Source of the DNA: Branchiostoma floridae
Lineage: Eukaryota > Chordata > Leptocardii > Amphioxiformes > Branchiostomatidae
Direction: 5' to 3'
Length of the DNA stretch: 64,000 nt
NCBI RefSeq assembly: GCF_000003815.2
Contig: NC_049996.1
Coordinates: 317,060-381,059 of the forward strand
The translations under genes and the position numbers were made by a program. Positions 3,801 through 33,300 of this stretch are shown one piece after another (within the stretch, counting starts at the first letter, position 1; every line of letters begins with the position of its first letter). Under the pieces are notes generated by a model that was not told the DNA's origin, searched no databases, and saw only the letters and a program-made list of their open reading frames with translations.

Positions 3801-6300
3801 GAAGGTATGTTTATTAGGGACATGAGAGTACATCGATTCCATAGTGTCATTTTTGCAATCAGGTAGACCTAATCATCTTTCAGTGTCTGTTAGGGATGTG
3901 TACAGGTACAGTGTACCCATACAGTACCGGTACAATCAATTAGGTACAGATACAAAAATACAGGAACACTGGTTTACTGGTACTGGACCTGTATCTAATT
4001 AGTGCAAGCCAGGCAGGATAACAGGTCAGGGGATGGCCACTTTGACAGATAAAATTACTGTGAAATCACCATAGCAGTCTTTGAGCCCCAATGAGGGAAA
4101 AGCAACAAGGGTCAAATTTTTGTTGCATCATGTGTCTACCATAATAAACACGTTTTTATTGGTTCAAACATGCTTCTACCCTTTTTAATACATTGTTTTG
4201 CCATTATAACATAATATAACATAATAGTATGATATAATATTCAATGCCATACATTTAGGTCCGGACTCATTAGGTCCGGACCTGTACCTAAACCTCTGGA
4301 TTCGAATCCGGACCTGTACCTAAACGTGGGTTTAGGTACGCATCCCTAGTGTCTGTTTTTATAACAAACTTTAGGCACTCTTTATGTGAAGTACATGTAC
4401 ATGTACGTTAAATCTATTCTTCCAGAGTTGTAGTCGAGTCCTGCTGGGTAAAGATGACAGGAAGATGTTCACAGACACACTGAGACGGCCCAACCTCAGT
4501 TACCTGCAGAGGAAGGGACTGAAGAAAAAAATCAACGAGAAGTGTCGAAAAGTCTCGTACTGTTCTCACTGTGGGGCGCTCAATGGTAAGAAAGATTGTG
4601 TAGCAAACAGGCTTTTAGCTAGGATTTTATAATAGGGAGTCCAAACTTATTGGTGAGTCGCGGTAAGTGACTATTGAAGGGGGGTCCGGAGGCATCCACC
4701 TTCCATGGTGCAGAGTTTTTAATGATTTTAAGTTAAAACAGTGCATTCTAAGGTATCCTAAGAGTCAAAAATACTGTTACAGATGTCACAGTAGAAGACT
4801 GTGACCACAGATGACCTGGTAGCATCCCTGGTCAATCAGAATTTCATGCTTGTCAGAGGATTTTCTCCCCAGTATAGGGCGTCCAGGGGCATCAAATTTC
4901 TTGTTATTCTAAGAAAAGTGCGTCCAGATGACGCGTTGACGCATGCCTGGCTAAAAGCCTGGTGGCAAACAAACAAACAAACAGTCTTTAGATGCTTCAT
5001 GTACAGTGTGTTTTATATTTGGGGAAAGAAACATTTACTAAAAAACAAGTAAATCATGATTTCTTCATAATCTAACAATTGTGCTTTTGTTGACTTGTAT
5101 ATTAGCCTGGATACCATCCCGATAGTAGTTCGCTCCTATGTTCACTTCTGCTATCCGTCTGGAGACATGCACATTCAAACCGTTTGGTGCTAACGTCAGT
5201 TAATGAGCGAATCAAGGAATAGGTTCTAGAGCACTTGTTCTATGACAACAGGCCCACAAGCGGACGGAGGGTTTGTCCGGTGTTGGAACACTGGTTCAAA
5301 AGAGAACTTGAATCCAATCAGCGCTTGCGTCCAAAATTTCGACGATTCCAGACGTTAAGATGGTCTGCGTTCCCAGACGAAAACACAGAGAAGCGACAGT
5401 ATATAGTGTATAATGAAAGACTGTCTGAAAGGTCTGAATAAATATTATATTATACAGCAGTGAAGACTGATTTAACTATACTTGAATTTCCTGGATGACT
5501 TGTCTTCACAAATGCACTATTAATTTTTGCGTTTTATTTTTATGGATTGCATGGCTAACTTTCTTACTATGGTGCATAGTGGTGCGTACCTAAAGCCCGG
5601 ACTTGGAATTGGACCTAAAATGTTTAGGTCCAAGTCCAAAAAAAACCTAAATGTCCAGACTCAAGTCCAGACTTGCGAAAAGCTATCTGTCACTTATATT
5701 CCCTTTCTTGTTCTAAACCATCTAAAACCTTCCATAGACAGTGAAATTTGCACTTGAAAAAGCCAAAAACATTTTGTGTTTACACTGACTGTATATAATT
5801 TGCATGTATTTTTCACATTGCATTTCAGTTCGTGCTAACATGCAATTTTATATACACCACCCCCCCTCCCCCTCAAAAAAGAAAACTTTCTAGCGCACAT
5901 AATACGCAATGATGGGTCCGGACCTGAACCTGAACTGCTGGACTTGAATCCGGACCTGAACCTGAATATGAGTTTACATGTAGGTACGCACCACTAATGG
6001 TGCATTAAGTAACTTAACAAACTATACCTAAATCTATATGAAATAGCATAGAAGGTAGATTTCATCTCAAACTTGTCTTACTTTCTCTCAGGTCCAGTGA
6101 AGAAGTGTGGACTTTTGAAGATCGTCCATGAACGGTACAAGAGCACCAAGAAAGTGGTGGACCCCGTCGTTACAGACTTCCAGTCATCGTTCCAGAGTGC
6201 AGTAGAACATAACAAGGAGATAGAAGGGCTGATACCTCGTGCACAGGAGAATCTGAACCCCATGGTGGCTCTGCACATGTTCAGTAGGATACCCCATCAG
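814..6300 (+). CDS. POLR3A: POLR3A exons 1-5: N-terminal clamp with zinc sites
   Basis: Exon 1 (814-857) and exon 2 (1275-1502) encode the start of the clamp, with [15 protein letters not shown]. Exon 3 carries the first zinc site, [17 protein letters not shown] (CxxC then CxxxH). Exon 4 carries the second, CSHCGALN. Exon 5 encodes [13 protein letters not shown] through [18 protein letters not shown] and ends at a CAG|gtatag donor at 6300. Order and spacing match eukaryotic RPC1. Exon 2 is interrupted by exactly 100 N. Reading frame on both sides requires a missing length of 2 modulo 3, and about 8 bases would restore the family consensus. Confidence 0.93.
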
Positions 6301-30300: not shown

Positions 30301-33300
30301 GTTTGTAACTTCTGGGTCCACAAGAGATGCTGTGGCATAAGAGGGAGTCTGCTAGCTGTGCAGAACTACACATGTCCGCGGTGTCGAGGGGAAGCTAGGC
30401 CACTGGATGGCCGCCCTACAACACAAGTCACTGTGGATGAAGTGGTCTTGGACGTGGAAGCCAGCTTTTGTTACCTTGGGGACATGCTCTGTGCTGGTGG
30501 CGGATGTGAGCTTGCAGTCACCACCAGATCCTGCGTTGCCTGGGGTAAATTCAAGAAGCTCCTGCCCATCCTTACTTCCAGGCACCTACCCTTCAAAACC
30601 CGTGGCAAGGTGTTTGACTGCTGTGTACGTGCGGCCATGCTTCATGGGAGTGAAACCTGGGCTCCTACCACCTCGGATCTACAGCGGTTGCGCCGCAATG
30701 ACCGTGCCACGATCAGATGGATTTGTGGCGTCAAACCCCGGGATGAGACCCCTTCATCTAGCTTACTTGATAAACTTGGTATTCTGGACATCATCTCAGT
30801 GCTGCAGTCCCGCCGTCTTAGATGGTTTGGGCACGTTGAAAGATCTAGTGACTGCATCAATAAGATCACCAAACTGAAAGTATCTGGCAACAGAGGTCGT
30901 GGTAGACCTAGGAAAACCTGGAGGGACTGTGTCAGCAGGGACTTGAAGGAGTGCGGTCTGACAGGGGTCGACCCACTGGACAGAGCCAAATGGAAGCGGA
31001 GTGTGAAGACTGGCCGACTGCTGCCTACCCCTGCGTCAGGGAACCCAGCAGCAGTATAATCTAACCATGGATAGTGAGTGAGTGTGAGTGATCCAATTGA
31101 TTTCACTCTTTGTTTGTTTGTTTGTTTGTTGTTTACCCCAGGGAATAGACTCGGTGTCCCGAGCTGTGATCCACCTGGATGAAAAGGGAGGGCAGCAGCA
31201 GTACAAACTACTGGTGGAGGGGGACAACCTTAGGGCTGTCATCGCTACTCCAGGTACTCAGGTCTACACTGGTTAACTTCAGTAGACTGTTATACATGTA
31301 CATGTGGGAGGGGGACAACCTTAGGGCTGTCATCGCTACTCCAGGTACTCAGGTCTACACTGGTTAACTACAATTCTGTGTTATGTTATAAACATGAACA
31401 TGTGGAGGGGGACAACCTTAGGGCTGTCATCGCTACTCCAGGTACTGTAAATGCATTTAAGTTCTCGGGGATTTAATTTCGCGGTAGCGGGAAAAAGGAC
31501 TTTTCGCGGTGGTTTTAATTTTGCGCTAACACGATAGACTGCAATCTAATACCATATTAGAAAATGTTCGCGGTGGTTTTAAGTTCGCGGTGAAGTGGTC
31601 ACCGCAAAAACCGGGAACATTAATCCACCGCGAACATTTCTGCATTTACAGTATATCATTGTTCATTGCCATATACTTGTGATTGGCAGTTTGAATTTTT
31701 TTTTCATCCGCATAAAGCTTTTGTCACATTTTGTATAGGATTCACATTGAACAAATTGAATGCACATTCAGTATGTTATTGATGGAAACCTTAAATTGTG
31801 TTTCCCATAGGTGTAAAGGGAACGAAGACAACATCTAACAACACCTTTGATGTAGAGAAAACACTGGGCATTGAAGCAGCCAGGTAAGCATAAATCAACG
31901 TCATGTACATGTAATCTACTTGAAGATAGACCTCTCTCTGTAAATTCTTTCAGAACATAAATGATATATGCTTCCATATTCTGAAGAACTCACACATGTG
32001 TATATTTAGCAACTGTATGTGGTTCTCCTGTCGATTGGACAGATGAGGAGGCAGACAGACTTTTTGCCTGTTTGCCTGACCTGCAGATGACTTTTTTTTA
32101 TGGTGAAGGAGGGGTGTGCAATTCCTTCTCCACCCTCTCGTCTACTGGAGCACTGAGTTTCACAGGGGCAACTGTATGCAACGTGTGAGGCGGCTCCAGC
32201 AGATGCAGCTTTGTTGTTTGGAGTATCCGTCTCCTAGGAGGACTTCCAACCAAGGATGCAAGGGGTTCCTCCTACCCCCAACTCGTGTGCCATGGCGGAT
32301 GCCGCTCATGCCCGAACATGCCCCTAAGGCCTGTCTCGGCCACATAGCCCCACCAAGGCCACACAACGCCACTAGCCGCAGCTAGATACTCATTTACACC
32401 TGAGTTAAGTGAGGGAAGTCGTGTAAAGTGCCTTTCCTAAGGGCACACGATCAGTGACACGGAAGCTGGATTCGAACCCGCAACCTCTCGGTCTCGAGCC
32501 GCAAATGCTGCCACTGCTCCGGGCGGTCCCACAACTGTACAGAGATGCTAAATCATACGGAATGGATACTGTTAATGTTTGATGAAATGTTTCCCCTACA
32601 TAATGGGAAAAGTTCCCTGCCTGATTTATATAATATAGTTTATCTTTTAGTTATGGAAAAGGTAGGAAAAAAAAAAGTGTTATCGCCTTTAAGTTAACAT
32701 AGACCATTATAAGAAAATATCAGTTTATACCTCATTAATTTTACCTTGTTCAGAGAATATACATAGTGCAGTATTCCTGTGAATGATTAGGAGATATGTC
32801 AGTGACAACTGTGTAATATATGCTCATGTGTTTTGCTATTTCTTAATAAACTTCAAAACCGATAACTGTAGACAAATGTAGAAAACAGAAAGCCTTGTCT
32901 CCTTTGCAAACTTTCCACAATATCCAACTTTACCACCATGACGTTTTGAAAGGCCGCGCTAAAATGTACATTCATTTGTAAGTTAAGTTAAAGTTAAACC
33001 CTTCCTGCGCCAAGGGCAGTGCCCATTTCTGGCGCATAGGGCGGTGCCCATCTGTTTCATTAGCCCTGGGCCACACACAACGCAATCACTACAGCAGGGG
33101 GCTAGTCCACTGGTAGTGGTGTGTGTTCAACTTCCATACTCTTTCCCGAATGCTGAGTGCTAAGCAGAGAAAGCAGCATGTACCATTTTTATAGTCTTTG
33201 GTATGACTCGGCCGGGGATCGAACTCACGACCTTCCGAGTGCAAGGCGAACACTCTACCCACTAGGCCATTGCACCGGCTCGTCTATCTAAAAGTTGAAT

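Follow-up and report, generated by a model that had tools for sequence, protein, structure and literature searches.

Which splice site does an exon use when its border has been copied in tandem several times, and what puts the copies there? POLR3A (RPC1) of Branchiostoma floridae raises both questions. The gene lies in a window of 64,000 nucleotides (C18:317060-381059 of the 513-Mb assembly, the one assembly used), and the initial annotation of this DNA had reported six of its exons with a tandem duplication over one splice site, suggesting either a local mechanism that favors exon-intron borders or selection for spare splice sites. The arrays are of a kind already published for amphioxus, which that annotation overlooked: excerpts of PMC3087553 apply the name "mirages" to amphioxus repeats at exon borders, citing Adh3 of B. 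floridae and B. lanceolatum and further loci. New here are five clear arrays in one gene, arrays implied at other exons in sister species, and four more arrays in a 211-kb sample of unrelated genes from the same assembly. We think it very probable that the POLR3A arrays are near-neutral mirages, tolerated since exon definition keeps the outermost splice sites.

The gene model and its five clear arrays are as follows. Coordinates are positions in the window, and the methods that located each array are in parentheses.

814..37851, + strand: POLR3A (RPC1) gene, 36 coding exons in the model (human RPC1 alignments and reading by eye)
6202..6917, + strand: exon 5 array, six copies of exon end, 5' splice site and intron start, 117-124 bp (self-BLAST, splice-site anchors); donors after 6300 (used by the model), 6421, 6543, 6667, 6784 and 6907
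7402..8139, + strand: exon 6 array, seven copies of 108 bp (Tandem Repeats Finder [TRF], splice-site anchors), each unit being 76 exonic bases, 14 intronic bases common to every copy and 18 bases present between copies only; donors after 7477 (used by the model), 7585, 7693, 7801, 7909, 8017 and 8125
10030..10239, + strand: exon 10 array, two copies of 3' splice site and exon start, 110 bp (TRF, self-BLAST); acceptors 10050 and 10160 (the model uses 10160)
29248..29436, + strand: exon 29 array, three copies of 63 bp, in frame (TRF, self-BLAST); acceptors 29263, 29326 and 29389 (the model uses 29389)
31214..31446, + strand: exon 30 array, three copies of 91-97 bp (TRF, self-BLAST, splice-site anchors); donors after 31253 (used by the model), 31344 and 31441

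An assembly gap at 1390-1489 breaks exon 2. From exon 3 to exon 36, the reading frame stays open for 1331 residues, and this translation is 100% identical over 100% of the query to residues 61-1391 of the deposited B. floridae RPC1 (P0001, 1391 amino acids). With default settings, TRF returned 24 rows for the whole window, seven of them with a period of at least 40; four of these seven lie inside the gene, and all four overlap a splice site. TRF thus gave four of the five clear arrays and missed that of exon 5, which self-BLAST recovered. Counts anchored on splice sites in the assembly agree with the copy numbers first proposed: six at exon 5, seven at exon 6, three at exon 30, two each at exons 10 and 24, and three at exon 29.

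An assembly artifact would be another account of such repeats, and one globin mirage does seem aberrantly assembled in the genome draft, according to excerpts of PMC3087553. We regard this account as highly improbable for POLR3A. The copies are distinguished by substitutions and indels, repeats also appear in the RPC1 models of two sister species, and the PGBD5 repeats of lancelets were confirmed by original and new read data, as stated in the available part of PMC3902484.

Beyond the five clear arrays, three older pairs were found at splice sites, among them the exon 24 pair counted in the initial annotation.

22516..22710, + strand: exon 24, 3' splice site with an old, degenerate copy (self-BLAST, shuffle test); acceptors 22577 and 22693 (the model uses 22693)
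35796..36305, + strand: exon 34, AT-AC 5' splice site with a candidate old copy 436 bp downstream (self-BLAST, shuffle test); from its sequence, this donor is presumably U12-type
18640..18840, + strand: exon 18, 5' splice site with a candidate old copy 166 bp downstream (shuffle test)

The exon 24 pair is weak in self-BLAST (E 0.28). Its alignment scores 62, whereas 1000 shuffles reached at most 35; the corresponding figures are 63 against 48 for exon 34 and 39 against 30 for exon 18 (1000 shuffles each). These scores carry no correction for how many places were searched, and intronic windows reach such scores at least as often. We rejected an enrichment of old pairs at borders: a score of at least 33 occurred at 3 of 60 splice sites without a young array, compared with 14% of 533 overlapping intron windows. 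The pairs at exons 18, 24 and 34 therefore rest on their own alignments. Thus, five of the six duplications originally listed are clear, and the sixth, at exon 24, looks real but old.

Under exon definition, the shortest exon that a 3' and a 5' splice site can delimit is favored. In the five clear arrays, splicing to the nearest site gives exons of 112-209 nucleotides, whereas the farthest copies would give 243-816. At the protein level, the deposited sequence is obtained only with the first 5' copy and the last 3' copy, that is, the copy touching the intact exon. These observations suggest how the arrays could arise and persist. A first local duplication of about 60-150 bp would happen to cross one exon-intron border, and copies would then be gained or lost through unequal exchange or slippage. 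Each extra copy would carry one kind of site and lack a partner for a proper exon. Splicing would be spared because the original exon stays the shortest; the extra copies would stay in the intron, and the arrays would therefore be close to neutral. Arrays also seem to arise and vanish at different exons in different Branchiostoma species. What had been anecdotes thereby become a dense natural experiment, in which an essential gene presents 2 to 7 near-identical rival splice sites at several exons.

Selection might instead preserve the copies because they serve alternative isoforms or act as spare splice sites. GT or AG is intact in every one of the 23 copies, exon 24 included, and most copies score about as well as the authentic site; the exceptions are one exon 5 copy that scores above it (10.0 versus 5.9) and the outer exon 24 copy, which scores below (1.9 versus 4.0). 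The exon 6 array is a single open frame through all copies, and use of inner copies would add, in frame and free of stops, 36 residues per copy at exon 6 and 21 at exon 29. Among the 5' sites of the gene, the three that bear arrays all rank in the lower half by score. Even so, we find such selection very unlikely. Inner copies lead to a premature stop at exons 5, 10, 24 and 30, four of the six arrays; the 5' sites are not significantly weak (p 0.07, n = 3), the 3' sites show no weakness (p 1.0, n = 3), and array positions vary between species' models. The exon 6 array frame matched no protein at an E of 1e-10 or below among 7998 scored candidates, whose length limits excluded full-length proteins. 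None of the 120 proteins listed, of 5619, was named as a partial Branchiostoma model, many of those listed being nameless. The proposal that spare sites are selected found little support.

Deposited RPC1 models of other Branchiostoma species imply arrays elsewhere in the gene. The B. belcheri model (P0002, 1644 amino acids) has repeated residues at the end of exon 2, the start of exon 13, the end of exon 14 (three copies) and exon 24 (four copies, one extra copy being almost the whole exon), and it also carries nonrepeat inserts. In B. lanceolatum (P0004), the start of exon 14 is repeated. A third model, P0003, labeled a B. floridae x B. belcheri hybrid, has a normal 1391 amino acids and resembles P0002 more than P0001 at the majority of variable residues. 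We read the repeats in P0002 and P0004 as gene predictions that mistook array copies for exons. The segments of exons 5, 6, 10, 29 and 30 showed no repeats in the three non-floridae models, a result that is uninformative about correctly spliced arrays. The comparison across species suggested earlier, made here with protein models, thus yielded repeats at exons 2, 13, 14 and 24 and none at these five exons. Judged from these models, array sites seem to differ between species and to turn over. The rival sites of POLR3A, apparently at different exons among sister species, make it directly testable, with lancelet genomes and RNA-seq, how exon definition chooses a splice site and how border duplications originate.

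Three points weigh against near neutrality. First, protein models are the basis for which sites count as used. Second, the exonic halves of the arrays are less variable than the intronic halves, which simple neutrality would not predict: when one kinesin array is counted too, variable sites number 20 of 354 in the exonic parts and 23 of 181 in the intronic parts (Fisher p = 0.0066), although the intronic halves are of low complexity and exon 30 alone contributes 10 of the 23. The exon 30 intronic comparison takes the introns after copies 1 and 2, copy 1 being the authentic one. Third, the position of all five young arrays at borders in one gene exceeds random placement.

Regarding the second point, the observation that exonic parts are best conserved held over all copies, with differences of 2.5-5% in exonic parts versus 4-24% in intronic parts (the exon 5 intron alignment is poor in this comparison). 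Composition, weak selection or conversion from the used copy may account for this uniformity. Divergence peaks in the copy farthest from the used one in exon 5 (six changes) and exon 29, and in exon 6 that copy shares the highest value (three changes); exon 30 is reversed, with no change in the farthest copy versus two in the middle copy. It is possible, if doubtful, that there is no bias in origin at all and that selection on the used copy, together with conversion, keeps exon-anchored arrays uniform while intron-only arrays decay. Such a process would make exonic halves more uniform than intronic ones, and in POLR3A the border arrays do look young and the intron-only arrays old. However, conversion ought to homogenize both halves of a unit, and in exon 6 the intronic spacers (4.4% divergence) are nearly as uniform as the exonic parts (2.5%), so the whole array looks young.

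For the third point, units of the observed lengths were dropped at random into the collapsed gene (35,359 bases, 12% exonic). A random unit crosses exactly one splice site in 12-20% of cases, compared with 5/5 young arrays observed (joint P 1.4e-4). The joint P becomes 1.8e-4 once exon-only and two-site units are ruled out and 0.005 in a rough variant that discounts half of the intronic sequence. POLR3A was chosen since arrays had already been seen there, so the true surprise is below what these P values convey. The count of young arrays omits a 32-bp repeat at 26396 within a dispersed element and an intronic pair with 88.5% identity whose members, at 13017 and 13447, are separated by 430 bp. 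Looser TRF settings added six intron-only arrays with a 66-76% match versus one to three eroded border pairs, leaving aside a period-40 row inside the exon 6 array; thus, old intronic tandem repeats do exist in POLR3A. The further claim that no unit contains both splice sites is true of all five clear units. Only 0.4-6% of random border-crossing units of these lengths would contain two splice sites, so the missing whole-exon units mean little and need no explanation: unit size alone predicts that they are rare.

Sequence outside the gene that prompted the question was sampled too. Pfam searches of the same assembly for tRNA-synt_1, myosin head and kinesin gave 19, at least 142 and at least 134 matches, respectively; the candidates scored were 65 of 348 for myosin and 122 of 191 for kinesin, and DNA was taken for 79 loci. 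All tRNA-synt_1 and kinesin places entered the sample, plus the 59 of 142 myosin places within the 79 loci. Merging gave 53 segments, 211,215 bases and 132 recognized exon pieces (130 when two array copies are subtracted). Seven young tandem-duplication clusters (identity of at least 85%, period 30-450) were present. By eye, four are mirages, two are intronic or of unknown position, and one is a 21-bp minisatellite. The four mirages are listed by their assembly coordinates.

C2:31967588-31968002: kinesin exon with three 3' sites, which we take to encode the P-loop motif (by eye)
C8:19715703-19715880: tRNA-synthetase exon with two 3' sites (by eye)
C6:18691097-18691231: kinesin 5' site, fewer than 10 exonic bases (by eye)
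C6:18691660-18691870: kinesin 5' site (inner copies found by machine, the exon-end copy by eye only)

Mirages therefore extend beyond POLR3A, and POLR3A is rich in them: young arrays occur at 5 of its 36 exons versus 4 of 130 pieces in the sample (Fisher p 0.024, uncorrected and post hoc). A 243-bp unit, present in about three copies that are 96% identical, lies upstream of a tRNA-synthetase exon in intronic or unknown sequence (L014 533-1243; C8:19714873-19715583).

Whether the sample favors borders depends on how clusters are counted. The automated count, which keeps the minisatellite, places 3 of 7 young clusters on a Pfam exon edge (P 0.067). By eye, with the minisatellite dropped, 4 of 6 lie at borders (P 0.005 at Pfam density, 0.063 if the true exon density is double). 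Older or shorter repeats (22 rows, grouped by eye into 12 clusters) touch a Pfam edge in four clusters. The pooled count of 9 of 11 (P 5.7e-5) was not relied on, as it merges the prompting gene with the sample. The scan for tandem repeats over splice sites that the initial annotation had called for, carried out on this 211-kb sample, is thus favorable by eye and falls short in the automated count.

A possible, if doubtful, explanation of these figures is that this lineage has a mutational process directed at exon-intron borders, such as duplication when transcribed borders are repaired by end joining, with arrays starting there more often than in introns. It accords with the five of five young arrays in POLR3A and with the by-eye sample count, and it would leave filler between copies. 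The junctions at exons 29, 10 and 5 appear, by eye, to involve microhomology of at most ~1 bp. At exon 6, exon 30 and the kinesin array, 18-54 bp lie between copies and are absent at the array end, as end-joining filler would look. Nearby templates for these spacers do not exceed chance, however: exon 6 had no match of at least 8 bases, and the longest matches, 11 and 8 bases for the two exon 30 spacers and 10 for the kinesin spacer, are within the shuffle range (maxima 12, 13 and 12). The spacers would fit end joining with insertion, and they would also fit a last copy from which the original intron start had been deleted. Against a border process stand also the automated count, the loss of significance at doubled exon density, and the many older arrays that lie away from recognized exon edges, six of them in POLR3A and 8 of 12 in the sample. 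A border preference is thus possible but not proved, with the sample supporting it only weakly; the mechanism first proposed is supported by the POLR3A counts and weakened by the sample and by the older intron-only arrays. That a duplication process starts preferentially at borders throughout lancelet genomes, with fast turnover of sites between species, seems to us rather unlikely. If true, it would supply, unusually fast, the material from which new splice sites and introns can form.

Several other features of the window were recorded. Two POLR3A introns, 23887-27539 and 35815-37598, are of the AT-AC type; their ATATCCTTT donors look U12-like, and both contain a branch-like TTAAC motif. The B. 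belcheri and B. lanceolatum RPC1 models deviate at both, skipping exon 25 and reading through as KYPF after exon 34. One frame of the distal half had no human RPC1 match at the threshold used. Intron 29 contains an open frame of 425 residues (29782-31059) with a YADD motif, which we take to be reverse transcriptase-like. Intronic 5S rRNA-like (15927-16042) and tRNA-like (28327-28398) sequences on the minus strand score above the Rfam gathering thresholds. A dispersed repeat with ends like TACTGTAAATGCA (by eye) occurs at 17000-17076, 20563-20777, 22289-22505, 31442-31655 and 40740-41240; one copy starts, by eye, ~3 nucleotides past the last exon 30 array donor, and another contains a 65-bp unit six times. 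Between 38 and 64 kb, the sole Pfam matches were to sialyltransferase, and no array was identified at the edges of those exons. The sialyltransferase (GT29) exons, at 54747-56251 (+) and 58686-59105 (-), are on opposite strands and so probably belong to two genes.

How do these arrays compare with known systems? Judged from listings of the open-licence literature, no genome-wide count of lancelet mirages was recognized, and the sole match for amphioxus with POLR3A concerns oligodontia. The excerpts of PMC3087553 describe regular splicing as seemingly undisturbed by RT-PCR (reverse transcription-PCR), report haplotypes of 6 and 3 units and propose intron gain; those of PMC3902484 describe 60- and 108-bp repeats across splice sites of lancelet PGBD5 and mention TnC. 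In the one assembly used here, the exon 5 region gave hits at the POLR3A locus alone. Like the mirages of Adh3, the globins BflGb6 and BflGb9, PGBD5 and TnC, as far as these excerpts describe them, the POLR3A arrays are minisatellite-like, with units of tens to ~160 bp over one exon-intron border, at 5' or 3' sites, in few copies, in the same genus and with a normal product expected. A POLR3A unit likewise spans an exon-intron border, and its copies keep GT or AG. Unlike the published cases, which in these excerpts have one or two arrays per gene, POLR3A has five clear ones; positions that depend on the species within one gene are not reported in the excerpts of PMC3087553 and PMC3902484. In the intron gain by tandem duplication described for potato RdRp (RNA-dependent RNA polymerase) in the available part of PMC4974935, the duplication also includes splice signals, and it crosses an intron-exon border. 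Unlike such intron gain, POLR3A forms no new intron between copies: the standard exons alone yield the deposited protein, and the extra copies leave with the old intron. The arrays resemble coding or intronic variable-number tandem repeat minisatellites of vertebrates in unit size and copy number. Those minisatellites are typically not centered on splice sites, as the POLR3A arrays are.

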